From a virus: a stretch of 64,000 nt of DNA. Both the position numbers and the translations under genes were made by a program. Where the stretch lies: IMG/VR virus record IMGVR_UViG_3300020220_000020, positions 1 to 64,000 of that record; one strand, written 5' to 3'. This document shows, piece after piece, positions 3,817-25,745 of the stretch (positions are counted from its first letter, which is position 1; each line of letters begins with the position of its first letter). The notes under the pieces are model-generated. The model worked only from the letters and a program-made list of their open reading frames with translations. It made no database searches and had not been told where the DNA came from.

Positions 3817-4370
3817 TGAAAAGAATAAAAATAGACATACCTGAGCAAGAAACTGAAAATTGGTATATAAAGAAAGTTTCTGGTGATTCATCAACAATAT
3901 ATTCAATGGCTATAGGTAGACCATGTCTAGGTAAAGAAGAACCTAATGATGAGTATACTTTTCTTTGTCAAAAAAATCCAAACTCAATAGTTATGGCAGA
4001 TACTTATCATGAATATTCTGAGCATAATCATTTATGGATAAATGCCTCAGGGCATGTTTTAATTGGAGGTCTTGGTCTTGGTCTTGTTAATAAATTTTTG
4101 TTAGATTCCGATTTAGTTGATCATGTTACAATTATTGAAAAAAATCAAGAAGTAATAGACATGGTTTGGCCTCATTGCCCTAAGAGTAGTAAATTTACTT
4201 TAATTAAAGCAGACATAGAAAAATATGATCCAGATACTTGTTGGGACTATGCGTGGTTTGACACTTATATATATGGAAATTCTCTTACTCATACTGAGTA
4301 TAAAAACATGATAAAAAATATATATTGTGAATTTTGCGAATCAATAAATTTTTGGGAAAGTATGCCTTGA
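3816..4370 (+). CDS. Class I SAM-dependent methyltransferase / spermidine synthase-like protein
   Basis: A 184-residue protein with a Rossmann-type nucleotide-binding core. A glycine-rich loop VLIGGLGLGLVNKF (about residues 80-93) is followed by VTIIEKNQEVIDMVWP, where the acidic residue ending strand 2 would bind the ribose of S-adenosyl-Met. Then comes DIEKYDPDTCWDYAWFDTYIYG, which matches the DxxxxL/Dxxx...D(V/I)WxDxY region of spermidine-synthase-like folds. It is shorter than true spermidine synthases and lacks their N-terminal beta domain, so the real substrate is unknown. It overlaps the gene before (TAATG) and the methyltransferase after it. Modification of a virion component is inference. 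Confidence 0.55.
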   Translation: MKRIKIDIPEQETENWYIKKVSGDSSTIYSMAIGRPCLGKEEPNDEYTFLCQKNPNSIVMADTYHEYSEHNHLWINASGHVLIGGLGLGLVNKFLLDSDLVDHVTIIEKNQEVIDMVWPHCPKSSKFTLIKADIEKYDPDTCWDYAWFDTYIYGNSLTHTEYKNMIKNIYCEFCESINFWESMP

Positions 4371-4894
4371 AAAAACTTTCTATTTACTCAAATCCATCTA
4401 GAGATGGATATCCTAATACTACAAGAAGATTTGAACTTATAAAAAAAATAGAAAACTTTAATACAATATTTGATTTTGGTTCTGGTCCATGTTCTTTGCT
4501 AAAATGGATTGTAGATAATAAAATAGATTGTTCTTATGAGGCTTATGATTTGAGGATAGATTCTCTTGAAAATTATTGTGATTGTGTGATACATTATGAT
4601 ATCCCACTAGACAAAAAATATGATCTTGTTTGTATTCTTGGTGTCAGCGGATTAAATACAGAGTCTGACGTAGAAACAAGCAAAAAAGTATTTTTAAAAA
4701 CTTTTAAAAAAGCTTGTAGTCTTTCATCGAAATATGTTTTGTTTAACGTGTCTTTTCAAGATAAATATCCTAATTATATAGTTAATTATACTAAAGATGA
4801 AATTTTATCAATTTTAAGTGACAATAACTTAAAAGTAATTTTTCACGACATAGATGAGTCTTTTAAGGAAAATATATACATGTGTGTTCTTTGA
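4367..4894 (+). CDS. Class I SAM-dependent methyltransferase-like protein
   Basis: About 175 residues. I choose the TTG at 4367 because GGGAAAG lies about 8 bases upstream and the TTGA overlap with the previous stop is typical of this cluster. A second in-frame TTG at 4334 would add 11 residues and lacks a ribosome binding site. The motif IFDFGSGPCSLLKWI at about residues 34-48 is a motif I (DxGxGxG-like) SAM-binding loop. YEAYDLRIDSLENY provides the acidic residue after strand 2, and YDLVCILGVSGL is the motif IV region. The substrate is unknown. The adjacent glycosyltransferase suggests O-methylation of a sugar or of a tail protein, which is inference. Confidence 0.55.
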   Translation: MKKLSIYSNPSRDGYPNTTRRFELIKKIENFNTIFDFGSGPCSLLKWIVDNKIDCSYEAYDLRIDSLENYCDCVIHYDIPLDKKYDLVCILGVSGLNTESDVETSKKVFLKTFKKACSLSSKYVLFNVSFQDKYPNYIVNYTKDEILSILSDNNLKVIFHDIDESFKENIYMCVL

Positions 4895-4916
4895 TTTTTT
4901 TTAACGATATATTAGT

Positions 4917-5597
4917 ATGAGAAAAAAATCAGCTACAAAAAAAATTAGAAAAATACTTATAGCAACGCCATCATATGATGGTAGACTTGATGCAAGATAC
5001 TGTAATAGTATTCTCTATACCGAAAGATTGTGTGCAAAGAATAATATAGAAATATCTCCAGTCTATTTGTGTTTTGATGCGATAATTTCCAAAACAAGAA
5101 ATGACTTATTTTGCTATGGGTATGAAAATAATTTTGATGACATATTTTATATAGATGCCGATATTTCATGGACTCCGGAACAATTTCTAAAAATAGTTAA
5201 CCATCCTTTTGATTTTGTTGGTGGTATTTATCAAAAAAAGCAAGATAATATTGATTATCCAGTTAATATTATTCCTGAACAAAAAGTTGATGAAAACGGG
5301 ATTATGGAAGTTTCAACTATTCCAACTGGTTTTCTTAAATTGAGCAGAAATGCTATTGAAATGCTTTGGGAAAAATCTTTACCGTATACTATATCTAAAG
5401 ACTCAAAAATAACAAAATTGGTTTTTGAAACTGGTATTATAGGTGGTAGGTTTATGAGTGAAGATATTGTATTATGTCTTAAGTGGAGGGAATTAAAACA
5501 AAAAATATACCTTGACACTACTGTAACTGTTGCGCACAGTGGGCATAAAACTTGGCAAGGTGATTTTTCTTCTCATTTAAGAGATATTATTAAATAA
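4917..5597 (+). CDS. GT-A fold glycosyltransferase
   Basis: A 226-residue protein. After a basic N-terminus comes KILIATPSYDGRLDARYCNS, the usual GT-A opening strand and nucleotide-binding loop. FYIDADISWTPEQFLKI contains a DxD motif (D80, D82) that would hold the metal and UDP-sugar. A later SEDIVLCLKWRELK segment (about residue 180) and VAHSGHKTW (about 206-214) supply the acidic and histidine residues common near the catalytic pocket of GT2-like enzymes. It has no membrane segment, so it acts in the cytoplasm. It lies between methyltransferases and a large structural-like gene, which fits modification of a virion protein. The sugar and acceptor are unknown. Confidence 0.65.
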   Translation: MRKKSATKKIRKILIATPSYDGRLDARYCNSILYTERLCAKNNIEISPVYLCFDAIISKTRNDLFCYGYENNFDDIFYIDADISWTPEQFLKIVNHPFDFVGGIYQKKQDNIDYPVNIIPEQKVDENGIMEVSTIPTGFLKLSRNAIEMLWEKSLPYTISKDSKITKLVFETGIIGGRFMSEDIVLCLKWRELKQKIYLDTTVTVAHSGHKTWQGDFSSHLRDIIK

Positions 5598-5599
5598 TA

Positions 5600-6937
5600 A
5601 TGGTTTATAATGCACAAAAAACTTTTGATAACGGATTTGTTGTAGGTTATAATTTTAGTGGAGCTGAGTCTGCTGCCTCTGGTGTTCGCGCTGGTTCTTT
5701 TGGCTTAGACAATCAGTCTTTTACTTGGGCCACTTTTGTAACAGGATCTAATCCAACCATGCAGGAATATTGGTCTATCAAAAGATGGTATCAGTGGGGC
5801 TGTAGAAAGTTTTGGTTGCATTCTCCTTTTGGTAGGCCAAATTCTTCTTCTCCCTTAGAACCAGGACAATATCAGCCCGATCAATATCTAAACGCACTAA
5901 ATGGACTAACTTATGGAGGATTAGTTTCCAATAATCCATGCCCATGGATGACTAAAGATTTCATACAGGTTTGGAGGGCATTGTCAACTGGTAAAAAAGG
6001 AAATCTATCTGATTCTATATGGAATTCTTGGACCAACCCATCTACTGGTTGGTTTGACCCATCAGACCCAATAAGCGTTACTGGTTATGTCGGTTCCATA
6101 TGGGGCCCTATGGGTTCAAGATTTTCTTCCTATTTTGAAAAGAACCAATATGAAGCTATCGATAGATTAAAAGATTCTTATATGCCATTGATTAAATCTG
6201 GTATGAAAATTGGAATAGATGCTTTAGAAGCTATGCCTGGTCCAATTCCTGGTATTCATGTCCCGCTTTCAACTCTTGGAAAAAAGTCACAAATAATGTG
6301 GTGGCATTTTTTTTCGTGGCTTTGTGACCAAGTTGGCAAGAAAAATATTTATGTTGAGGCTTATCCAAGAAAGAAACTGTACAATGGGGTATATTATAAT
6401 AACCCTTATATCGGTTGCAGTGTTGCTACGGACGATGCATTGTATTCTCAGGATTATGGATTATACAATCATTCTGATTCTGAGCTTGGTAAGGTTTATG
6501 TTCTTAAATCTTTTTGGAACAGTCCTCCCGTAACCAGAAAGCAGGACGGTTCTGCCGCAAAACACAATTTTTTATTAGCTTATGAAAATGCTCAGTGGCC
6601 CAATGATGGAGATGGTTTTTTGGATGGATACTGGTATGTTCAGCAGGTTCCTGCGAACGGATATGGTGCAGTTTGCAACTATGCTTCGTATGCATATATA
6701 CTTAATGAGGACTTTCAGTCATGGGATCCAGCACCAGAAAGAGATATATCTGTTCCTCAAGTTTTAGTTAGTCATGCAGATTTACAGGACTATAGTGTCG
6801 CTTCTGGTTTTAATACCGCTCTAAATAATGAATTGTTTTTGAATAAGTTTCCTACAAGTGCTAGATTTGTAGATTATTTACAATACACATACGATGAAAA
6901 AAACTATGATCCAACAGTTTCTTCTGGTGATTTTTAA
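5600..6937 (+). CDS. Large unknown protein, possibly tail-associated
   Basis: A 445-residue protein starting two bases after the glycosyltransferase stop. It is unusually rich in Trp, Tyr, Pro and Asn (for example WWHFFSWLCDQVGKKNIYVEAYPRK split around residue 240). There is no signal peptide or membrane segment. Strand-helix alternation such as SGMKIGIDALEAMP and KNIYVEAYPR, with acidic residues at strand ends, would be compatible with a TIM-barrel glycosidase-like fold. I cannot point to a definite catalytic pair, so that idea is weak. Position between the fibre/glycosyltransferase block and terminase suggests a virion or tail-surface protein. Function unassigned. Confidence 0.6.
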   Translation: MVYNAQKTFDNGFVVGYNFSGAESAASGVRAGSFGLDNQSFTWATFVTGSNPTMQEYWSIKRWYQWGCRKFWLHSPFGRPNSSSPLEPGQYQPDQYLNALNGLTYGGLVSNNPCPWMTKDFIQVWRALSTGKKGNLSDSIWNSWTNPSTGWFDPSDPISVTGYVGSIWGPMGSRFSSYFEKNQYEAIDRLKDSYMPLIKSGMKIGIDALEAMPGPIPGIHVPLSTLGKKSQIMWWHFFSWLCDQVGKKNIYVEAYPRKKLYNGVYYNNPYIGCSVATDDALYSQDYGLYNHSDSELGKVYVLKSFWNSPPVTRKQDGSAAKHNFLLAYENAQWPNDGDGFLDGYWYVQQVPANGYGAVCNYASYAYILNEDFQSWDPAPERDISVPQVLVSHADLQDYSVASGFNTALNNELFLNKFPTSARFVDYLQYTYDEKNYDPTVSSGDF

Positions 6938-14013: not shown

Positions 14014-14823
14014 ATGGAATTTTTTACAAATCGTATCGTTGTTAATGGGCCAAAAAAGAGTTTTGCAGACATCATAAATGAAGTTTCTAATAAGGGCATG
14101 AAGAAGAAGGCATCTAAGGACGCTGAATTGTCCGAAGGAGAAAAGGCTCAATTAACTCCGGCTCAAGAAAAACTTCCAGAAAATCTTGCCAAGGCCATAG
14201 CCAAGTCAAATAAGAAAAAGAAGGTTAAAGGTAAAGGCAAAAAAGGCAAAAAGAAAGCAGGTTCTGTTGATTCCGTTAAGATCTCTTCTATAACTCCTAA
14301 CGAAGACGGTACGGTAACTTTGGATATTGATGAAAAAGTTCTTGCTACAAAAGTTGCTGAAGAAGAAGATTGTTTGAAGTCATCTGATGATGAAATGGAT
14401 GAAATGGATGAGGATGGTGATGAGGATGGTGATGAGGATGAAGGCGAAGATGAAGAAACTGATGATGGTGAAGAAACTGATGAGGATGAGGATGAGGATG
14501 AGGATGAGGATGAGGATGAGGATGAGGATGAAAGCGAAGATGAAGAGGACTCAGACAGCGAAGGCTCATCTTACGTAGCATCTCTTGAGGCTTTTGAAAA
14601 AGAAATGGGATGGGATAAGGAAGCCGCATCTGACATGAAACAAGCAATTGAAGGTGATAAATGCGGATGCGGCACAAACTATGCAGAGTCAAAAGAGGCC
14701 TCTTCCGTTCAGTTTGTCAAAATTGCCAACTTAACAGACAAGCAAAAAGGCGTATTTAGAAAATATTGGTCCAATATTTGGCCAAAGGAATTTATTGATG
14801 CTGTGTTAGACACAGAAAATTGA
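14014..14823 (+). CDS. Acidic/basic low-complexity protein with Asp-Glu repeat
   Basis: A 269-residue protein with a strong AAAGGAG ribosome binding site. It has an N-terminal region, a Lys-rich segment (KKKKVKGKGKKGKKKAG, about residues 68-84), a structured stretch (ITPNEDGTVTLDIDEKV), then a long Asp/Glu tract coded by a hexanucleotide repeat. It closes with a folded-looking C-terminus containing CGCGTNY and FRKYWSNIWPKEFIDAV. Blocks of strong opposite charge are typical of scaffold-like or internal-head proteins, and the acidic tract could mimic DNA. No enzyme motif is seen. Function unknown; a scaffold or inner-head role is inferred. Confidence 0.5.
   Translation: MEFFTNRIVVNGPKKSFADIINEVSNKGMKKKASKDAELSEGEKAQLTPAQEKLPENLAKAIAKSNKKKKVKGKGKKGKKKAGSVDSVKISSITPNEDGTVTLDIDEKVLATKVAEEEDCLKSSDDEMDEMDEDGDEDGDEDEGEDEETDDGEETDEDEDEDEDEDEDEDEDESEDEEDSDSEGSSYVASLEAFEKEMGWDKEAASDMKQAIEGDKCGCGTNYAESKEASSVQFVKIANLTDKQKGVFRKYWSNIWPKEFIDAVLDTEN
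14479..14532 (+). repeat. Hexanucleotide tandem repeat coding (Asp-Glu)n
   Basis: Eight perfect copies of GATGAG followed by one GATGAA, in frame, encoding an alternating Asp-Glu run inside the acidic protein. Such a repeat can change copy number by replication slippage without shifting the frame, so its length may vary between isolates. Confidence 0.9.
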
Positions 14824-15415: not shown

Positions 15416-16011
15416 GAATATTTAAAAACAAAGATAATTTTTCAAGTTCTATCTTTGGTTCTTCTGAAAAAAACGATACAGACAAAACAGTAAGTCCTAG
15501 CGAAGGTTTGTGGTCTAATTTTTTTAACAAAAAAAGTGAAGTTCTTGAAAATAGTCTTTTGCCAAATGCAAAAACAGTTTCTGGTAAACAGATGCCAGCT
15601 TCTGAGGGTTCGGGTTCTGCTCTTTTAAATTCTTCAAAACTTGCTGGTTCTGATTTGTTCAATAAAAAAGTTTCAGATAAAACAAAGCAAGAAAGAACAC
15701 AGGAAAAGCAAGAGCTTAAAAATAAATTGAGTTCTTTAGATAGAGAATACAGAGTTAAAACAACAGACGATACTCTAATACCAAAAATAAATAGCGTGTC
15801 TAAGTGTTCAAGTTCAGAGTCTGGCAAAACTTCTTCTCCTAAAAATTCAGTATCTATTTTTGATGATAATCCATTTGACGGTGTAAAAGATAGGGAGAAG
15901 ATATCTAAAGCTCCAAGAGAAAAAAATCAATCAAAAATGACTCCAGTTAAAACATCTGAAATTCTAGATAAGGTGTTTGATTCATTGAAGGGTAAGGAAA
16001 AAAATGCATAA
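15412..16011 (+). CDS. Disordered Ser/Lys-rich protein, unknown
   Basis: A 199-residue protein rich in Ser, Lys, Asn and Asp with almost no hydrophobic clusters, except an N-terminal MRIFKNKDNFSSSIFG and a C-terminal helix (SEILDKVFDSLKGKEK). It has an ATGA overlap at the start and an eight-base overlap with the following gene at the end. The composition resembles internal phage scaffold or cargo proteins, but no family is recognised. Confidence 0.45.
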   Translation: MRIFKNKDNFSSSIFGSSEKNDTDKTVSPSEGLWSNFFNKKSEVLENSLLPNAKTVSGKQMPASEGSGSALLNSSKLAGSDLFNKKVSDKTKQERTQEKQELKNKLSSLDREYRVKTTDDTLIPKINSVSKCSSSESGKTSSPKNSVSIFDDNPFDGVKDREKISKAPREKNQSKMTPVKTSEILDKVFDSLKGKEKNA

Positions 16012-17044
16012 GCCATCTAATTTTTTTAGTCTGGCTAAATTTTCTCAGCTTTCAACGCAGAATTTATCTAGTCCGGTTTTTGAAAACGCAGAAAGTAGCA
16101 CAGCCCCTGTTGAACAAAAATCTGAATCATCTCTTCCTGTTTTTGATGCAGGTGATTTTGACGGACAAAATATGCTTGAATCTGAAGGTTCTGATTCAAA
16201 AAATCTAAATTTTAATAACCACTTAGAGTTTTATAATTTTCTCAAAGATATTTTTGAAAAAAATAATAACGATTCAGCTGCTGCCTTTGACGAATCTTGG
16301 AATGGGATTCTTGCCCCCTTTCTTGGAGACTCTTCTGGGGCTTCCCAGGTTGAGGACGGGCTTAAAAGGTTTTTTAGCTCAGAAATAGAAAGCGAAGATG
16401 CGGTTGATCTTGTAAATGACATATTTTCTATATATTCAAGTTCTATAGGACCGGAGATTGAGCCAATCATGACACAAAAACAATCAAATGAAATTATAAA
16501 CGATATGATAAAGAGATCAAGAGAATCTATTTCTATTATAAGTGATTATATTTGCGATAATCTTGTTGGCAATTGCGACACAAGTAATAATTCTTCTATG
16601 AAGAAAGAAGCTCAACACAAAGGAATGGAGAATATTTATTACTTTGGTCCAGAATCAGTTAGTGTAAGTCCTTTTACTAATGACATACAGTCTGGTCTTC
16701 ATAGGGTTGAGCAGAATAAAGGTTTTGGACTTGTTTTAGATGACATTAAGGACTTGGATTATGAAGCCATATGGCGTCAAAATGTTATGGATAAATATAC
16801 GCAGCCATATAGGGATGAAAATGGCAATTATGTTGGTGGTTATTTAAATAAAAGATTTGAAATTAATAGAAACATTGATCCAATAAATAATATGCAACTT
16901 CCTCCTGGTGTTCGCAACAGGCCTTATGTTCCAGAGCTTGGATTAACAGAAGCTCGTATGGAAGTTGCAAGAGGAAACAAAGATAAGTTATCAGATCCTT
17001 TTAGTTTGTCCAGTGTTGATTTGAATTTAAAAAAAAAGATATAA
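16004..17044 (+). CDS. Unknown pre-portal protein (0-frame product of a probable -1 frameshift pair)
   Basis: A 346-residue protein. The N-terminal 100 residues are Ser/Asp-rich and flexible, then a helical part (residues 100-200) and a conserved-looking region follow (GLVLDDIKDLDYEAIWRQ, RPYVPELGLTEARMEVARG). It ends LNLKKKI at a run of nine A residues. The sequence T-TTA-AAA-AAA-AAG there holds slippery heptamers and is followed by a candidate stem. A -1 shift on A-AAA-AAG would replace the last residue with 74 residues carrying a zinc ribbon, giving a 419-residue form. The gene lies just upstream of the portal, so a neck, portal-associated or scaffold role is plausible but unproven. Confidence 0.55.
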   Translation: MHKPSNFFSLAKFSQLSTQNLSSPVFENAESSTAPVEQKSESSLPVFDAGDFDGQNMLESEGSDSKNLNFNNHLEFYNFLKDIFEKNNNDSAAAFDESWNGILAPFLGDSSGASQVEDGLKRFFSSEIESEDAVDLVNDIFSIYSSSIGPEIEPIMTQKQSNEIINDMIKRSRESISIISDYICDNLVGNCDTSNNSSMKKEAQHKGMENIYYFGPESVSVSPFTNDIQSGLHRVEQNKGFGLVLDDIKDLDYEAIWRQNVMDKYTQPYRDENGNYVGGYLNKRFEINRNIDPINNMQLPPGVRNRPYVPELGLTEARMEVARGNKDKLSDPFSLSSVDLNLKKKI

Positions 17045-17095
17045 CTAAGTCTGCCCAGTTGGATCTTTCTGGTTATGATTCTTATAAGGGCAGAT
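17026..17095 (+). promoter_or_regulatory. Candidate programmed -1 ribosomal frameshift signal
   Basis: In the 0 frame the codons are TTA AAA AAA AAG ATA TAA. They contain T-TTA-AAA and A-AAA-AAG, both valid X-XXY-YYZ slippery heptamers; the second is the highly active bacterial type. Eleven bases after AAG, TCTGCCC (17050-17056) can pair perfectly with GGGCAGA (17088-17094), with an extra G-U pair, across a 31-base loop. This is the classic layout for stimulating slippage. The pairing and spacing are read directly; activity is inferred. Confidence 0.6.
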
Positions 17096-17262
17096 CAAAA
17101 TCGAACAATACTTACAAAAACTTAAAAAGAGTTTGTCCTATTTGCAACAGTGATAATTCTGCAGATACGTCGAAAAATAACAACAAGTGTGTTAATTGTG
17201 GAGCCTCTTTAAGAGGCGTTCCTTCTCAATTTGTATTTGCGATAGGTAAGAAAAAACAGTAA
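17038..17262 (+). CDS. Zinc-ribbon extension reached by probable -1 frameshift
   Basis: This -1 frame is open from 17020 and encodes, after the slip, DITKSAQLDLSGYDSYKGRS, then a zinc ribbon VCPICNSDNSAD...NKCVNCGASLRG with a CxxC-x16-CxxC spacing. It has no ATG at a useful place. The in-frame TTG at 17059 has no Shine-Dalgarno upstream (AAGTCTGCCCAG). The lack of an independent start, the slippery run and the downstream stem all favour translation as the tail of the gene at 16004. The alternatives are a homopolymer sequencing error that split one gene, or weak initiation at TTG. The zinc ribbon may bind DNA or a partner protein. Confidence 0.6.
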   Translation, partial: DITKSAQLDLSGYDSYKGRSKSNNTYKNLKRVCPICNSDNSADTSKNNNKCVNCGASLRGVPSQFVFAIGKKKQ

Positions 17263-17268
17263 AAATAA

Positions 17269-19548
17269 ATGGCAAAGAAAACAGAACAACAAATTAGTAG
17301 TGATTCGCTTAAGGACCAGAAAATGATTAATTCTGCCGTTGTAAATATGCCTCTAACAAAAGCTGCTCAGTATATGGGCGGTAGTGCATCTACCATATTT
17401 ACTCAGCCCATGTTCTTTTCTCCGCTTCACACGCCTCAAAGTTGGCAAATTGCAAGCAAGAGAAAAGAAGTCTACCAGTGGTCTAGGTTCTATTATGAAA
17501 ATGAACCAAAAGCTGCGGCAGGAATAGACTTTTACGCAGGCTTCCCAATGAATGGTTTTACTTTGGAATGCAAGGACAAAAAAGTACTTGCATTCTATGA
17601 GCATTTAATAGATAAAATAAATTTGAGTTATTGGTTTAGAAAAATATCTCACGAATATTTTTTACTTGGAGATGTGTTTGTTTTTACTGAAGTTGACTGT
17701 CCTCATTGCGGTGGTCATGGCGTTTTACCGGATGGCCGTCAGTGCAACCATCCTGATGGTACATTCAAGAGAATTCTTATTTTAAATCCTGATTTCATAG
17801 AAGTAAATAATTCTCAGCTTGCAGAAAAACCAACAATTGCTCTTATTCCTGATGATGATTTAAAGAAAGTTGTTCAACACAAAAAGCCCAAAGAAGTATA
17901 TGAGAATATACCTCAAAACGTAAAAGACATGATATCTTCTGGCGCTGCCATACCTCTTTCATCAAGATGTGTGTCTCATTTGAGACACAAAGGCTCTCCT
18001 TACGGAGTCTATGGAGAGAGTCTTCTAAGAAGACTGTTTATGGTAATAGCATATAAAACCAAGCTGATGACAGCTAATTGGATAATGGCTGAAAGGCACA
18101 TTCTTCCAATAAGAATAGCAAAAGTTGGAAATGATAATCGTCCAGCTAGCGAATACGACATAGCTGATGTTCAGAGTCAACTTGCCTCTGTTGCAAATGA
18201 CCCAAACTTGACAATAGTTACTCATCATGCTTTTGAATTAATACACGAAGGTGCTACTGGAAAGATTCACGATATTGCTTCTCAGCTTGAGTACGTTGGT
18301 AAAGAAATGCTTGATGGACTGATGTTGAATCAGGGTCTTCTTAATGGTGAGCTTGCCGGGTACAGTAGCGTTGCCATAGGCGCAGAAACCATGATACGTA
18401 GACTTGAAACTTGGCGTCAAGAGCTTGCTGAATGGTGTGAGAAAAATATATTTCTTCCTATAGCACAGATGCAGGGTTTTGTTGATGTTTCTAAGTCTGA
18501 AATGATTAACGAAACAGTTTATCTTTATCCCAAGGTAAAGTGGAACGATCTCAAGCTCAGAGACAATAGTCAGTATTTGCAGAGTCTTTCGCAGCTTCAC
18601 GACAAGGGTATAATATCAACACAAAAACTACTACAAGAATTTAATATAGATTACGATCAAGAGATTAATAGAATAAGAGAAGAACAAATAGTCAGTGGTA
18701 AGGGAGGTCTTGTTCAGCAAGGGGCTGGTGGCGGTGGTGGTGGATTAGATCTTGGTATGGGCGGCGGTGGCCTTGATCTTGGTTTAGGTGGTGGAGGCGC
18801 ACCTGGAGGAATGCCAGGAGATATGGGTCTTGGTGGATTGGACATGGGAGGTGGCGCTCCGATGGGAGGTGCTCCCGCAGGAGGTGCTCCCGCAGGAGGT
18901 GCTCCCGTAGGAGGTGCTCCCGTAGGAGGTGCTCCCGTAGGAGGTGCAGTTGCTTCTCAAGAAGAATCTTTAAATTTGATAAAAGAAGCTCAGCAGCAAC
19001 AGGGTATTAATCCAGATTTTAGAGTTTATAAAAAAGGTAAACAACCTAAAAAGGAAAACATAAAAGACCAGAAGGATCAAAAGCTTGCTCCAATATATTT
19101 GACAAAACCTGAACAAAAATTATATAATATAATTTCTTCTTTAAAATTGCCCTATAGAGTATTTGCTCAATACAAACAGGCAATACCAGGCCAAACGAAT
19201 CCCTATCTTTTAGATTTTGCTATTCCTGACCTTGGTTTAAACCTAGAGGCTGATGGTGATTTTTGGCATTCTGATCCAGAAAGTATACAAAGAGATAAGG
19301 AAAGAGACTATAGACTCGCATCTATGGGGTGGAGAGTAATTAGATTAAGAGAGGACGCACTTAATAATAGGGCAGATGTTTGCGAAACTATCATTAGAAA
19401 TAATATACAAGATATTATTAATGAGAAAATGAAAAAAAGGTCTAATTCAGATGAAAATGAAATTATTATTAAGATATCATCCAATGATATGAAGGATGAT
19501 ATAGTAATAATTAAGAATTCTTTTGAATATGATCAAAATAGCGGCTAA
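17269..19548 (+). CDS. Portal protein with C-terminal Vsr/DUF559-like nuclease domain
   Basis: A 759-residue protein. Residues 30-480 have portal features: PQSWQIASKRKEVYQWSRFY, EPKAAAGIDFYAGFP, the long central helices around LLRRLFMVIAYKTKLMTANW, and the crown/stem stretch with GYSSVAIGAETMIRRLETWRQ split near residue 370. A small CPHC...CNH motif (C144, C147, C159, H161) may bind zinc. A Gly/Pro/Ala linker (about 484-565) carries 15-bp repeats. Residues 605-735 look like a PD-(D/E)XK nuclease: LLDFAIPD (D649), NLEADGDFWH (E660, D662), then RDKERDYRLASMGWRVIRLRED, close to Vsr and DUF559 proteins. The portal forms the DNA channel. The catalytic residues look intact, and the fusion is unusual. 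Confidence 0.8.
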   Translation: MAKKTEQQISSDSLKDQKMINSAVVNMPLTKAAQYMGGSASTIFTQPMFFSPLHTPQSWQIASKRKEVYQWSRFYYENEPKAAAGIDFYAGFPMNGFTLECKDKKVLAFYEHLIDKINLSYWFRKISHEYFLLGDVFVFTEVDCPHCGGHGVLPDGRQCNHPDGTFKRILILNPDFIEVNNSQLAEKPTIALIPDDDLKKVVQHKKPKEVYENIPQNVKDMISSGAAIPLSSRCVSHLRHKGSPYGVYGESLLRRLFMVIAYKTKLMTANWIMAERHILPIRIAKVGNDNRPASEYDIADVQSQLASVANDPNLTIVTHHAFELIHEGATGKIHDIASQLEYVGKEMLDGLMLNQGLLNGELAGYSSVAIGAETMIRRLETWRQELAEWCEKNIFLPIAQMQGFVDVSKSEMINETVYLYPKVKWNDLKLRDNSQYLQSLSQLHDKGIISTQKLLQEFNIDYDQEINRIREEQIVSGKGGLVQQGAGGGGGGLDLGMGGGGLDLGLGGGGAPGGMPGDMGLGGLDMGGGAPMGGAPAGGAPAGGAPVGGAPVGGAPVGGAVASQEESLNLIKEAQQQQGINPDFRVYKKGKQPKKENIKDQKDQKLAPIYLTKPEQKLYNIISSLKLPYRVFAQYKQAIPGQTNPYLLDFAIPDLGLNLEADGDFWHSDPESIQRDKERDYRLASMGWRVIRLREDALNNRADVCETIIRNNIQDIINEKMKKRSNSDENEIIIKISSNDMKDDIVIIKNSFEYDQNSG
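18865..18948 (+). repeat. 15-bp tandem repeat in portal linker
   Basis: Five full copies of a 15-base unit (GGAGGTGCTCCCGYA), plus a partial sixth, encode GGAP(A/V) repeats in the flexible linker between portal core and nuclease domain. The copies differ only at one position (GCA or GTA), which points to recent slippage. It is not a CRISPR array because the units are contiguous and coding. Confidence 0.9.
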
Positions 19549-19981: not shown

Positions 19982-20061
19982 ATTGGAGTCCTCAATGTGC
20001 CTCAGCAAAAGATCAATTAATTTTAATCCTTCTCAAATTGGAGTCCTCAATGTGCCTCAGC
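19952..20061 (+). repeat. 55-bp direct tandem duplication over the protease/scaffold start
   Basis: Copy 1 (19952-20006) and copy 2 (20007-20061) match over the whole unit except one base, T19979 versus C20034, which makes TAA in copy 1 and CAA in copy 2. The unit is not a multiple of three. An ATG that is out of frame inside the gene (copy 2, NV codons) becomes, in copy 1, an in-frame start at 19995 with GGAG seven bases upstream. Confidence 0.9.
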
Positions 20062-23000
20062 ATTGGGAAGAGTTTAATTTAAATTCAATAATAAAGTCTG
20101 CAGCACTAAATGAAGAAAACAAAAATGGATCTTTTGAGGATTTTGATCTCAAAGAAGCAATAAATAAAAATCCAGAACATCTTTTTGTAAAAGTTTTTGC
20201 AATAAAAGAAAATGAGATGAATGACAACGGAGATTTCTTTTCAAAAGAAGAGCTTCAAAAAGCCGCAAAAACATTTATTGGTGTTCCTGTTTTCGTAAAT
20301 CATCAAAATGATGATATAGAAAAAGCAAGAGGCAAAGTTGTTCACGCATGGTACGATGAGTCAAAAGGCGGTATTTACACCATAAACATGGTTGATAAAA
20401 TTGCCTATCCAAGACTTGCTCGTGGCATAGAAACTGGTGTTATAACAGGTACTTCAATGGGCTGCAGTGTTCAGCATTCTATTTGTAGTGTTTGTCACAA
20501 TCAGGCTTCTACCGCTAAAGATTTTTGTTCTCATATAAAAGAGAGAAAGAAAAAGAAGTTTTCTGGTGAATGTGAATGCGAATATCATAAAAATGGCAAT
20601 TATGACGTGTGTCCATTATGTGGCGGGAAAAAAGGTGAAAAGAAAAAGATAAAGCATAAAGACCAAACTATATATGAGCACAACTATGGTGTTAAGTTTA
20701 TAGAAGACAGTTTTGTTGTAAATCCTGCATGTCATGATTGTCTTGTGGCTGAAATCCTAAATTCAGACGGCATTAATAAAAAGGTTGCAGAACTTTCTGA
20801 ATCTATAACAAAACTAGCATCTAGCGTTCCTGTAAACGAGCAGAGTCATATTTGCGAAAATGGGATGTGTTCTTTAAGAAAGGTTGCTGGAGTTTCGGAA
20901 ATAAACGAGTTAAATCAGGCTATGAATTTAATGGAGAGAGTTGCTCGTTCACTTATGGCCCAAAAAGAAAGAGTTAGCCTAGAATATGTTAGTGATATTG
21001 TTAAAACATTGGCCGATGTTCAAAAAATATCAGACGAACTTATAGAAATGGGTTATGCCAAATTGCCAAGTCCAAGTGTTCATGATGCAAGCGTTGGCAC
21101 TAGTTCTGCTGCATCTCCAATAAATAAAGAAAGAATAGGGCAACTTTCTCCATCTCCCGCTGCAATGCAAACATTTCCTCAGCCTGCAATTCAGCAGGCA
21201 ATTCAGCCAAAACCATCTCCTCAGCCTGCTCCTAATACTGTATCTCCTATGGAAACATCATATGGAGATGATGTTGGAAGGGTTGTAAAACCAAATATTT
21301 CTCCAAAAGGTGCTAATTCAAGGGAGGAATTTACAAAAATATCAGAAAATTTAATTAACAGTCTACAGTCTGTTTATTCTAATGGGAATCTAATAAAAAA
21401 TCAAATAACAAATATGTCAGATCAAATCTTAAATAACAAAATCGTCCAAATAGACAGAGATAATCTATCTGTTATTATTTCTGCTGATGGCGATGGTGAA
21501 ATAAAAATTGCTGAATGCAGAGACGGAAAAATTATGAAGTTGTCTGATATAGACTTATTTGATTCTGAAATGCAGGATCTCATAAGGGGCAATTCTGCTA
21601 AGGCAGCAGAATTGATTATTGAATCGATGATAGGTAACAAACAGGAGATTAAGGAATCCATGGAAAACAATGAAAATATAAAAATAGCTCAGTCAAAAGA
21701 TACTATTACCGAAAATCAGCTTAATGGCTCTGACCTAAAGCTCCATCCAAGATGGAAAGAGGGAGAGCATTACACTGCCATTACCGAAAGTTCTGAGCAG
21801 CTTGGAGCAAAGTCTCCTAAGTCCAAAGATGTTTCCAGTGATTCTCCACAGGTTAGAAAAGGAACATATTCTGAAATTACCGAGCTACAGCTTGCTAACA
21901 ACAAGAATGGTTTCCTTGCTCGTTGGGGAGATTTTCCAACCGTTATTACCGAGGGTCAATGGACAGAAATGTCTAGAGAAGTCTTTGCAAAAATGCCTTC
22001 TGATTGGACTAGTTACGTCCAAACAGGTCAACTTGATTCCTTAAGAGACTCTCATAGCTGGAAAGAGCCAACTGTTGTCACCGAATCTCAATTAAGAGGC
22101 TCTTCCAAGAAAACTGCATCTTCTGTAAATGAAATGCTTAAGTCTGCATCCGAAGCTGTTGTTGATTCAATCGTAACTTATGGTCTTTCTGGAGAACAAC
22201 TTAAGAGAGTTGTTGCTTTTGTAAAAAGCAATCCACACAATCACCTCAAAGCTTCTTATATGACTCTTGTAAATTCTGCTCCATGGACAGTTGATATGAG
22301 ACAGGATGTAAATGCCAAAAATAGATTCTTTAAGAAGGCCAGCTCATCAGATATGGATCCTGTTGATTCTTTCATAGGTGCCATGTCTGACAATATCGGT
22401 TCTCACAGGGCAGAAGATTTTATAGATGCTGTTAGTTTCATAGTAAATGACAGTAGTGCTTGGAAGGTTGCAAACGACAAGGCCGAAGAAAGAGTTGCTA
22501 GCATTAACAGTGAAGATGAAATATCTTCCAAAGAAGATATCTTTAGAAAGGCATTTGCAGAAAATGAGCTTCCAGAAGATGGAATGTTTAAGGTTTGCTG
22601 CACAATCAAGGATGATATTGGAATAGATCCATCTGACAATAAGAATTTCTTGAAAGCCGTATTTGCTTTTGCTCAAGATTCAGTATCTGACAGATTTGGA
22701 GATATAGACATAATACCAGTAAATGTTGATATAGATGAGGAGAACGGTCTTGTTGAATGCACTGCCAAGCAGGCATCAATGCTTGATGATTCCGAGCTTG
22801 AAGCTTGGAATAAGGTCGCTTCTTCCTTAAATGAAGAATCATCAGAGTCTGAAGATTCTGACATGGTAAGAACTGCTTCTTCTGATAACTCAAACTCAAG
22901 AAGAGCTCGTATACTTGATGAGCTTGATAGGCTTGAAAAGCAGGCTCAGCTTGCTGGTGGTCAGATGCCAACGGCTCTAAATCCAGCTGGTATGGGTGCT

Positions 23001-25745
23001 GGAATGCAAATTCCTGGTGCTGGTGCTCCTGCTGGCGCACCTCCAATTGAATCCTTAACAGCTGGTTCTCCTGCTGGTGGTGCTGCAGATCCACTTTCCG
23101 GTTTAGACATGGGCATGGATGATAAAAAGTCTGATGACGAAGAAGAAAAAGCCAAGCCTGGTGCAGGGTACCCCATGCCTGCTGCAGCTGTTTGCGTAAT
23201 TTGTGGAAACAATGATGTTGATGTTGGTGGTGGTAAGGCTAACTGCAAAGGTCCAGGATGCGGAGCCAACTATACAATTAAGGTTGTTCCAGATGCATCT
23301 TTGCTTGACAAGATAATGGATGGGGACATTGATGATAGCGATACTAAGCCAAATTCTTCTTCTGACGTTGAAAAGGGTCTTGGAGGAGAAGGTCCTGCTG
23401 GTCCAGCTCCTGCAATGCCTCCAATGGCAGCTACTGCAAAGCTTAAGGTTGACACTCTCAACAAAATAGCTAAAAAGACTCCATTTGGTTCAATAAGTCC
23501 AGTTACTGGTAGTAATAATACCATGAAGGTTGGTGGAAGTACGTGGAAGTGCCTTGACAGTGGTCAAGAATACATAGTCCGTGTTGCTGCCGATTCAAAA
23601 GATCCCAAATCTGTTTGGGCTCAGTGGGAATGGATACCTGAATTTAAGCGCGTTGAATGCTCTTCTTGCTCTAGGAAAAAGGCAAACTTTGTCAATAATC
23701 TTGGAAAAATGGGTATTAGTGAAAGCACATTTGATTCCATGAATCTTAATGACAAATCTTCTGTTATACTTGCAATGAAGGAAAAGGGACTTTTGAATGA
23801 AACAAAAGTAGCATTCAATTCAGAAGACTCAAAGAATGTTCTTGGTCTATTCAAGGCAGCTTTCTCCACAGGAAATAAATTCCCAATGGAAACATGCCTT
23901 GAAAAACTTGCAAGAAGATTTGGCGAGGATGCAGTATCTATGAGTGGACCATGTGAGGGTAAGAATCTTGCTGATTGCGTTTGCTCTAGTCTTGCTAATG
24001 AAAAAATGTATTCAACAGGTCTTGCGAATAAGATTGCTTCTATATGGGTTGAAAAAGAAGCTGGTTCTGAATGTATAGAAGATTTTGTAAGAGAGGGAAT
24101 GACAATAAAGCAAGCTTCTGCTTCTTGTGAGCAACTTAGAAACAAGTATATATCTGAAGAGGAGTTACTTGCTGAGGAACTTACAAGAGTCGCTACCGGA
24201 GACATGATGGTTGCCGAAGATGCTGTAGCAGAATCAGACCCTTTTAGCTCAGAAATGGGATCTTCAATGGATTCTGATATGTCATCTTCTGACGAACAGA
24301 ATTCTGGTTCTGTTGATCTTGACATTCATATGTCAGACGCCTCACTTGAAAATCTAGAGAAGAGCCTTAAGGAAGTTCTTGATGCATTAGCTCCTCTAAC
24401 AGATGGTTCTGACGATGGATCAAAAACAGAAGATGTTTCTGAAAATACTTCAGAAGAATCTGAGCATGTTGAAGACTCTATGGACTCAGAAGAAGATGAT
24501 TCTATAATGGATGAAATCCCTGATGCAAATGCAAATAATGAAGAAATGATGTCAGAAGACAAGGATGCTGCTATGTTAAAGCATGCTCCAGAAAGTATGG
24601 TCAAGGAAGAGGGAGAATATGCAATGAAAGAGTCAGAGTCACTTGGCGAATCTCTTAAGAGAGGTCGCATTGTGGGCGTAAACAAGATTAACCTTGATGT
24701 TTCCAAGCTTGCTCAGGCATTGAGCAAATCTGCTGGCGATAAGAAGGTTCAACTTTCTAACGCTCAGGATCAATCTGAAATAGGAACTATTTCTTCTGGT
24801 AAGGCTCTTAAATCTGAGCATGGAGAAGGCTTTGATGCAAAGGGTCCCAAAGTTCCTGGTGGTCATGGCAAGGCTCTAAAGTCAGAGCATGGTGATGGCT
24901 TTGACGATACTGCTTACCCTGAAGTTCCTGTTAATGGTCCAGCCTTGGAGGGCGAGTCTGAATATAAGCCTGAAAAGGGTAATATGATGACTGGCGGTCA
25001 AAACGGAAGTGGTTCTTCTTCAACTGGCAAGTACCAGATGACAAGAAGTGCTTTTGAAGAAAGTCTTGCTAAGCTTGCCAAGGAGATGTCTCTTTCTGTA
25101 AATATAGTACAGGAAGATCCATCTATACAGCCAGTAAAGGGCAAGGACTCATTGACCGTAGATGGATTTGATCCAGTTGAAAATGGTGGCAAGCCTCTCT
25201 CAAGTGAGCATGGCGAAGGTTTCAATGCAGAAACCCCATCAATTCCAGCTGGTGAAGGTTCTATGGGTCACGAAAAGGAAATGGGATTAACTCCAGAAAA
25301 ACAAGAACAAATAACCGGTGGTCAGCTTGGGGCTGGCTCATCGACTAAGAAGAGTAATAAACCGAAGACTGCAACTGCTTCTAGCAGTAAAGAGTCCAAC
25401 GAGTCAAGCAAAGATGCCGCAATTAAGCTTGCAGGTAAAATGGTAGAGAGTAAAATAATCTCTTCCAATGATCTTCCAAGTAAGATTGCTGAACTTGAGA
25501 GATATGAAGTATCTCAGATCAGAGACATTGAAAAAGCAATGTTTAGGCAGGCTAGCGTGGCTCAAAAGGGACTTGTGACGGCTTCCAAGGGCGTAGAGCG
25601 TCCTCTGGTTATCGGTGAGACAAGTAGCAACAGGAACGGTTATACGGATCTCCGTTCAAAAATATCTTCTCTATTCAGTCTGCAACATCAGGTAGATGCT
25701 GCAGAGGAGACAGATAATGTTCAGATTAGGAAAACGTTTAAATAA
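19995..25745 (+). CDS. Giant prohead protease/scaffold polyprotein
   Basis: About 1,916 residues, the longest gene here. I choose ATG 19995, which has GGAG at the right distance; TTG 19983 is the alternative. Residues 60-165 resemble a phage prohead protease: FVKVFAIKENEMNDNGDFFS, TFIGVPVFVNHQNDD (H103) and GVITGTSMGCSVQHS (S154) offer a His and Ser candidate pair. Cys-rich zinc-like segments follow (CSVCHNQ, CPLCGGKKG, CHDCL). The middle has five (I/V)TE motifs (about residues 570-697), and a CVICG...GCGANY ribbon lies near 1070. Long acidic, Ser-rich scaffold-like stretches continue to a C-terminus with SEHGEGF repeats. Protease plus scaffold fused in one chain is the likely reading; cleavage is inferred. 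Confidence 0.65.
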   Translation: MCLSKRSINFNPSQIGVLNVPQHWEEFNLNSIIKSAALNEENKNGSFEDFDLKEAINKNPEHLFVKVFAIKENEMNDNGDFFSKEELQKAAKTFIGVPVFVNHQNDDIEKARGKVVHAWYDESKGGIYTINMVDKIAYPRLARGIETGVITGTSMGCSVQHSICSVCHNQASTAKDFCSHIKERKKKKFSGECECEYHKNGNYDVCPLCGGKKGEKKKIKHKDQTIYEHNYGVKFIEDSFVVNPACHDCLVAEILNSDGINKKVAELSESITKLASSVPVNEQSHICENGMCSLRKVAGVSEINELNQAMNLMERVARSLMAQKERVSLEYVSDIVKTLADVQKISDELIEMGYAKLPSPSVHDASVGTSSAASPINKERIGQLSPSPAAMQTFPQPAIQQAIQPKPSPQPAPNTVSPMETSYGDDVGRVVKPNISPKGANSREEFTKISENLINSLQSVYSNGNLIKNQITNMSDQILNNKIVQIDRDNLSVIISADGDGEIKIAECRDGKIMKLSDIDLFDSEMQDLIRGNSAKAAELIIESMIGNKQEIKESMENNENIKIAQSKDTITENQLNGSDLKLHPRWKEGEHYTAITESSEQLGAKSPKSKDVSSDSPQVRKGTYSEITELQLANNKNGFLARWGDFPTVITEGQWTEMSREVFAKMPSDWTSYVQTGQLDSLRDSHSWKEPTVVTESQLRGSSKKTASSVNEMLKSASEAVVDSIVTYGLSGEQLKRVVAFVKSNPHNHLKASYMTLVNSAPWTVDMRQDVNAKNRFFKKASSSDMDPVDSFIGAMSDNIGSHRAEDFIDAVSFIVNDSSAWKVANDKAEERVASINSEDEISSKEDIFRKAFAENELPEDGMFKVCCTIKDDIGIDPSDNKNFLKAVFAFAQDSVSDRFGDIDIIPVNVDIDEENGLVECTAKQASMLDDSELEAWNKVASSLNEESSESEDSDMVRTASSDNSNSRRARILDELDRLEKQAQLAGGQMPTALNPAGMGAGMQIPGAGAPAGAPPIESLTAGSPAGGAADPLSGLDMGMDDKKSDDEEEKAKPGAGYPMPAAAVCVICGNNDVDVGGGKANCKGPGCGANYTIKVVPDASLLDKIMDGDIDDSDTKPNSSSDVEKGLGGEGPAGPAPAMPPMAATAKLKVDTLNKIAKKTPFGSISPVTGSNNTMKVGGSTWKCLDSGQEYIVRVAADSKDPKSVWAQWEWIPEFKRVECSSCSRKKANFVNNLGKMGISESTFDSMNLNDKSSVILAMKEKGLLNETKVAFNSEDSKNVLGLFKAAFSTGNKFPMETCLEKLARRFGEDAVSMSGPCEGKNLADCVCSSLANEKMYSTGLANKIASIWVEKEAGSECIEDFVREGMTIKQASASCEQLRNKYISEEELLAEELTRVATGDMMVAEDAVAESDPFSSEMGSSMDSDMSSSDEQNSGSVDLDIHMSDASLENLEKSLKEVLDALAPLTDGSDDGSKTEDVSENTSEESEHVEDSMDSEEDDSIMDEIPDANANNEEMMSEDKDAAMLKHAPESMVKEEGEYAMKESESLGESLKRGRIVGVNKINLDVSKLAQALSKSAGDKKVQLSNAQDQSEIGTISSGKALKSEHGEGFDAKGPKVPGGHGKALKSEHGDGFDDTAYPEVPVNGPALEGESEYKPEKGNMMTGGQNGSGSSSTGKYQMTRSAFEESLAKLAKEMSLSVNIVQEDPSIQPVKGKDSLTVDGFDPVENGGKPLSSEHGEGFNAETPSIPAGEGSMGHEKEMGLTPEKQEQITGGQLGAGSSTKKSNKPKTATASSSKESNESSKDAAIKLAGKMVESKIISSNDLPSKIAELERYEVSQIRDIEKAMFRQASVAQKGLVTASKGVERPLVIGETSSNRNGYTDLRSKISSLFSLQHQVDAAEETDNVQIRKTFK

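Follow-up and report, generated by a model that had tools for sequence, protein, structure and literature searches.

How could a zinc-ribbon reading frame that lacks a usable start codon of its own be expressed from the end of a phage gene? The question is raised by a 64,000-nucleotide stretch of viral DNA (hereafter the window), which forms part of the 94,490-base virus record IMGVR_UViG_3300020220_000020. In the window, the gene directly upstream of the portal gene, here called the pre-portal gene, terminates just after a run of nine adenines, and the ribbon lies in the overlapping −1 frame. An earlier interpretation, made from the letters of the DNA and here termed the sequence-only reading, proposed that a programmed −1 frameshift adds the ribbon to the pre-portal protein. 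The features on which the analysis turns are as follows.

16004..17044, + strand: pre-portal protein, short form, 346 aa, with no Pfam, PHROG or PDB relative
17029..17037, + strand: A9 run, the putative slip site and the sole run of at least nine A in the window
17029..17262, + strand: trans-frame (−1) extension, 77 codons from the run, with substitutions among relatives biased by codon position
17042..17044, + strand: frame-0 stop TAA, its first base 4 nt past the run end
17046..17048, + strand: third-frame (+1) stop TAA, its first base 8 nt past the run end
17050..17094, + strand: stem-loop TCTGCCC (17050-17056) / GGGCAGA (17088-17094), strong in the window and not conserved in relatives
17134..17199, + strand: zinc ribbon CPIC-x14-CVNC, a sequence motif
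17269..19548, + strand: portal protein (Portal_Mu, phrog_16240) with a C-terminal DUF559 / REase-like domain, beginning 6 nt past the trans-frame stop codon

The 3' end of the pre-portal gene reads TTA AAA AAA AAG ATA TAA in frame 0, which bears out the claim that the gene starting at 16004 ends on an A-run followed by a stop, and the run counts exactly nine A. It begins within a T_TTA_AAA heptamer (17026-17032) and contains the overlapping heptamers A_AAA_AAA (17029-17035) and A_AAA_AAG (17032-17038). The −1 frame is open solely from 17020 to 17262, and its earliest possible start, a TTG at 17059, has no Shine-Dalgarno sequence; the ribbon frame has no usable start of its own, much as had been proposed. 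The +1 stop lies so near the run that both non-ribbon frames close at once. The predicted products of 346 and 419 residues, the latter being the pre-portal protein plus the trans-frame extension, also agree with what had been calculated for a slip at this site. Within the predicted long form, the peptide ..KKKDITK would span the run and SAQLDLSGYDSYK would lie downstream of it. A zinc ribbon is indeed present, although the spacing had been misread as CxxC-x16-CxxC: the cysteines at positions 39, 42, 57 and 60 of the open frame, which are invariant across 16 aligned loci, enclose x14.

A homopolymer of this length is unusual in the window. Synonymous shuffling of the genes predicts 6.7 runs of at least nine A in the 64 kb, against the one observed, and only 0.5% of shuffles contain as few. 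Runs of seven A are over-represented and runs of eight slightly depleted, suggesting that avoidance begins between 8 and 9. There are 13 overlapping Lys-Lys-Lys triplets in the window, and all except the slip site are broken by, or made of, AAG. In many bacteria, A/T runs are likewise counter-selected from length nine upwards, and a 9A run conserved among homologues has been proposed as a mark of purposeful slippage (PMC1088944).

Scans with the pre-portal protein and with the portal recovered 2 and 22 loci, respectively, and with a pre-portal alignment as query the number rose to 75, the contigs measuring 4.6 to 548 kb. Removal of duplicates left 58 distinct loci, the window included, on uncultured viral contigs from many metagenomes. 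The ten most distant loci (L094-L103), which have neither a run at that place nor a ribbon, were left out of this core family, as was L084, in which frame 0 stops early and there is no run. No member of the family was detected by a scan of one genome per bacterial or archaeal species, nor by tblastn among 50,697 phage records; the pre-portal gene is also missing from the neighbourhood of the related portals in Bacillus phage G, LR745208 and Rctr197k.

The run is present in 58/58 distinct loci, as A9 in 19, A10 in 32 and A11 in 7, never shorter and never longer. The family thus carries a homopolymer of about nine or more A/T whose length is conserved among homologues, a property expected of programmed transcriptional slippage sites. 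By comparison, other Lys-Lys-Lys tracts in the same loci contain at least nine A in 5/113 cases, and only 7 other runs of that length occur in 433 kb. The codon phase of the run start is far less constant, being 0 in 32 loci, 2 in 25 and 1 in one; even within the window's clade (13 loci) the phase shifts between 0 and 2 with the length constant at A9 in 13/13. Where the run starts on the third base of a codon, that codon ends in A in all 25 loci (TCA, TTA, GTA, CTA, CCA or GCA), so that the additional A persists across codons for five amino acids (Ser, Leu, Val, Pro and Ala). Run length hardly changes from locus to locus, in contrast to the codon phase, the flanks and the downstream stem.

The bases flanking the run were also recorded. 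A pyrimidine precedes it in 58/58 loci (T in 43, C in 15, never G), and G follows it in 51/58. Flanking bases reportedly alter slippage, according to one study with T7 polymerase on A5.

The frame of the trans-frame domain relative to the upstream gene divides the 58 loci unequally. It is −1 in 49 (split loci), in frame in 9 (fused loci: L054, L061, L065, L067, L078, L080, L081, L086 and L087) and +1 in none, and the fused loci retain an A10 or A11 run. One inserted A joins the frames in the 49, the 9 are already joined, and phases 0, 2 and 1 all occur; a second product could thus be reached by an insertion or deletion in the run regardless of codon phase, as is characteristic of slippage. The flanks of L067 (A11, fused) and L048 (A10, split) are identical and a single A separates the two, and the remaining fused loci include A10 runs in another codon phase. 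On a quick tree of the protein upstream of the run, in which 17 of the 54 inner branches are weakly supported, the fused and split states require nine changes, so each of the nine fused loci appears to have arisen separately from split kin. The sequence-only reading had named relatives that lack the A-run and encode the ribbon in frame as grounds for rejecting a frameshift. The fused loci do not fit that description, as they still carry the run, and nearly all relatives are split.

Both non-ribbon frames stop within 15 nt at 79% of the loci, compared with 32% after synonymous shuffling of the trans-frame. Early stops in both non-productive frames are the layout described for slippage in Thermus dnaX (PMC5009743), and the family displays it, less strongly when the third frame is taken alone: this frame is closed in 79% of split loci against 63% expected (p about 0.03, 47 thinned representatives).

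The trans-frame itself behaves as coding sequence from the run onward. Between run and ribbon, 16 pairs of relatives differ at 138/83/259 sites in trans-frame codon positions 1/2/3, a bias that argues for translation of this frame from the run on and that resembles the pattern of the upstream frame-0 gene. Purifying selection acts on the residues just after the run, which are conserved. A −1-frame TAA lies across the start of the run in many phase-0 loci, so that in these the frame can be entered only inside the run. The domain measures 65-78 aa in the window's clade and 114-251 aa outside it, where it often terminates in a DLAIDG-like motif. No CxxC ribbon is present in L088 and L090, although both keep the run and the terminal motif, and none is clear in L082.

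We interpret the locus as a conserved, selected recoding site in the portal-upstream gene of a large group of uncultured tailed phages, at which RNA polymerase slippage leads to two proteins, and we give this reading a probability of roughly 0.65. RNA polymerase transcribing the run of 9-11 A would occasionally add an extra A, and messages of templated length and with one additional A would both be translated normally. In the split genomes, which are the majority and include the window, the templated message would stop after the run and give the short form (346 aa here), and the message with one more A would continue into the zinc-ribbon domain and give the long form (419 aa here). In the minority of genomes the DNA encodes the long form, and slippage would yield the short one. 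Both proteins are probably made, and RNA polymerase is probably the enzyme that slips.

What points to RNA polymerase is that a length of 9-11 is kept regardless of phase or DNA frame and that both other frames are closed; a site indifferent to the frame encoded by the DNA favours transcriptional slippage. The direction of the shift is also as expected, since on the poly(A) runs studied in E. coli the host polymerase did not rescue by deletion (PMC6260861), which predicts a ribbon in the −1 frame and never in +1. Against transcriptional slippage, the E. coli enzyme inserts weakly on short A runs (PMC6260861). Genes for a multi-subunit RNA polymerase were not found in the 94-kb record, and in a search for a single-subunit RNA polymerase the controls were silent. 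Two further points tell against it: third-frame closure exceeds the synonymous expectation just modestly after thinning, and there is a moderate enrichment of RNA structure 15-80 nt beyond the run, for which slippage has no need.

A programmed −1 ribosomal frameshift on A_AAA_AAG or A_AAA_AAA, with or without a downstream stem, survives best among the alternatives, and we regard it as possible if rather unlikely. The window itself speaks for it. A heptamer of the X_XXY_YYZ type stands in frame 0, the textbook A_AAA_AAG ranks among the best E. coli shift motifs (PMC4066793), and eleven bases separate its AAG from the 7-bp stem, whose exact TCTGCCC/GGGCAGA pairing is present just as had been noticed; the structure z for the first 60 nt is −2.3. 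Heptamer, spacer and stem had been said to match known −1 stimulators. All three exist in the window, but the stem is private to it: the relatives share no 3' stem or pseudoknot placed a short spacer away, and their best hairpins begin at scattered positions +2 to +58 nt beyond the run. Mean structure z is −0.2 to −0.4 for sequence windows starting at +3 to +9 and −0.9 to −1.0 at +15 to +30. Across the 58 loci, predicted RNA hairpins at no fixed spacing are in excess between 15 and 80 nt past the run (mean z about −1), an enrichment that a ribosomal mechanism would accommodate; in part of the window's clade, repeated Leu-Asp codons may be the source of the excess. A Shine-Dalgarno stimulator was also absent from the 16 loci examined, where the 30 nt upstream form no stable pairing with the anti-SD (best −3.1 kcal/mol).

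The slippery site tells a similar story. Every run includes A_AAA_AAA or A_AAA_AAG, and the ribbon is −1 whenever it is out of frame and never +1, as ribosomal slipping would also have it. The A-run is conserved throughout, but A_AAA_AAG stands in frame 0 in only 12/49 split loci, the window among them, with A_AAA_AAA in a different phase or length in the others. For a heptamer, 6-7 A positions are needed; the run, by contrast, always has at least nine and keeps its length as the phase moves, and in-frame genomes still carry it. E. coli dnaX, in which A_AAA_AAG, a Shine-Dalgarno element and a stem direct a −1 ribosomal frameshift, shares the slippery heptamer with the window; the phage family differs in having no Shine-Dalgarno element, no conserved stem, a run exceeding the heptamer everywhere and, in most relatives, no in-frame A_AAA_AAG. 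A programmed frame switch that adds the ribbon, as first proposed, is supported, but a stem-stimulated ribosomal mechanism is the less likely cause, because it is the run length and not the stem that is kept. All the runs are nevertheless slippery for ribosomes too, and a −1 shift would give the same two proteins from split or in-frame genomes, which weighs against transcriptional slippage; the two kinds of slipping may both contribute. The 49 split and 9 in-frame genomes constitute a natural experiment that could separate them.

The remaining explanations are far less probable. If the run were a phase-variable contingency locus, replication slippage would leave long-form and short-form genomes mixed in a population, in keeping with the one-A length changes between relatives and with the existence of both in-frame and split genomes. 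Such a locus would be expected to drift through three frames, however, and the loci are distributed 49 / 9 / 0; near-identical contigs from separate samples have equal run lengths in 8/8 comparisons, the window's clade is uniformly A9, and third-frame closure would be left unexplained. On balance we consider this very unlikely. Slightly less probable again is expression of the ribbon as a gene of its own, with translation beginning within the trans-frame by internal initiation or reinitiation. The frame-0 stop is close by, and some loci do contain an ATG, GTG or TTG between run and ribbon, but 18/49 split loci have none before the ribbon and only 4/49 have a Shine-Dalgarno-like sequence before one. 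Separate initiation is also hard to reconcile with the purifying selection acting directly after the run and with the same fusion being encoded in frame by nine relatives, and it offers no account of the conserved A9-A11 run. Finally, a homopolymer sequencing or assembly error splitting one gene, the rival named in the sequence-only reading, is refuted for the family and close to negligible here: long homopolymers are error-prone and nine relatives have the fusion in frame, but the gene is split in the same direction in 49 distinct loci drawn from many metagenomes, run length does not differ between near-identical contigs of separate samples, and frame-0 stops are retained just after the run.

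Slippage of RNA polymerase, the reading we prefer, has several known counterparts. Thermus thermophilus dnaX likewise has a coding-strand A9, two products differing at the C-terminus and stops near the run in both non-productive frames (PMC5009743, PMC1088944); it is a cellular gene whose DNA encodes the long form, whereas here a phage gene mostly has the short form in its DNA. In Shigella flexneri mxiE and spa13 and in bacterial IS elements (9A/9T), one inserted nucleotide likewise joins overlapping frames, and spa13 acquires a 112-aa C-terminal extension by slippage (PMC5009743, PMC1088944). Those are secretion-system and transposase genes encoding unrelated proteins, and mxiE slips on U, in contrast to the A run of the phage. 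Among phages, the frameshifts of the tail chaperone gpG/gpGT and of capsid genes (lambda, T7/T3 gene 10, A2 and PSA) likewise produce short and C-terminally extended forms of structural proteins by changing frame close to the end of the gene (PMC5009743). The present gene differs from these in lying directly upstream of the portal gene, and in its protein, its extension and its probable mechanism. It does not appear to be a tail assembly chaperone of the gpG/gpGT kind, as the next gene encodes a portal rather than a tape measure protein and no chaperone family was matched. In the literature searched, the sole suggestion of a phage poly-A slippage rescue concerns the methyltransferase CPt10_0091 of a Campylobacter phage, a possible rescue of one frame-shifted gene presented without conservation or two-product evidence (PMC2853527).

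The frame switches known in structural genes of phages mainly concern tail chaperones and major capsid or tail proteins, and they are attributed to ribosomes. An earlier report of slippage or recoding in a portal-adjacent phage gene was not found in the literature searched, most subscription papers lying outside that search. Neither recoding in the structural genes of phages nor slippage at A9 is new in itself (PMC5009743). What would be new is that, throughout a lineage of large tailed phages, programmed RNA polymerase slippage on a frame-indifferent A9-A11 run sets the ratio of the two forms of an undescribed portal-adjacent head protein, a proposal that we hold to be slightly better than evenly balanced. 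If true, this would be the first known case of a conserved switch based on transcriptional slippage among the virion genes of tailed phages, and evolution would have moved repeatedly between DNA encoding the short form and DNA encoding the long form. The family lies next to the portal gene and is absent from the phage records searched; the homopolymer switch that it bears is deeply conserved, and its anatomy points to RNA polymerase. There is also a practical consequence: where a gene caller insists on a start codon, the ribbon domain will go unannotated or be listed as a spurious ORF, so the annotation of such loci needs correcting.

The protein itself gives few clues from homology. The best-conserved segment of the pre-portal protein is ..IWRQNVMDKY..PYRD..GNYVGGYLNKRFE.., and AlphaFold2 produced no confident fold for either the whole protein (pLDDT 57, 16 rows) or the conserved segment (pLDDT 65, 55 rows); an extended segment that folds against a partner is one possibility. 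A repeated FNLxK motif was considered and dropped, having shown no enrichment in the window. The position of the gene between the terminase and portal genes suggests a role in head or portal assembly. Judged only by its neighbour genes and the ribbon, the product plausibly helps to assemble the head or portal, a version that carries a binding domain and one that lacks it being made in a set ratio, and the two forms would presumably act at the portal or the head. The logic would be comparable to that of gpG/gpGT or of dnaX tau/gamma.

The neighbouring genes show features of their own. The window portal has a distant likeness to that of Bacillus phage G, and a C-terminal DUF559 / MTES_1575 REase-like nuclease domain follows the portal domain in the window and in L005, L007, L010, L013, L014 and L019. 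The L019 portal gene (3851-6601) has an intein/Hint domain too (PF14890, PF07591). Upstream, in the head-gene region, the gene at 14014-14823 contains a long Asp/Glu repeat (EDEDEDED..), a low-complexity acidic tract at approximately 14387-14600. Downstream of the portal gene, an ORF of 1920 aa (19983-25745) matches a head maturation protease (phrog_18299) at its N-terminus, contains the internal cysteine motifs CSVCHNQ.. and CVICGNN..CKGPGC and is apparently a protease fused to a long acidic protein.
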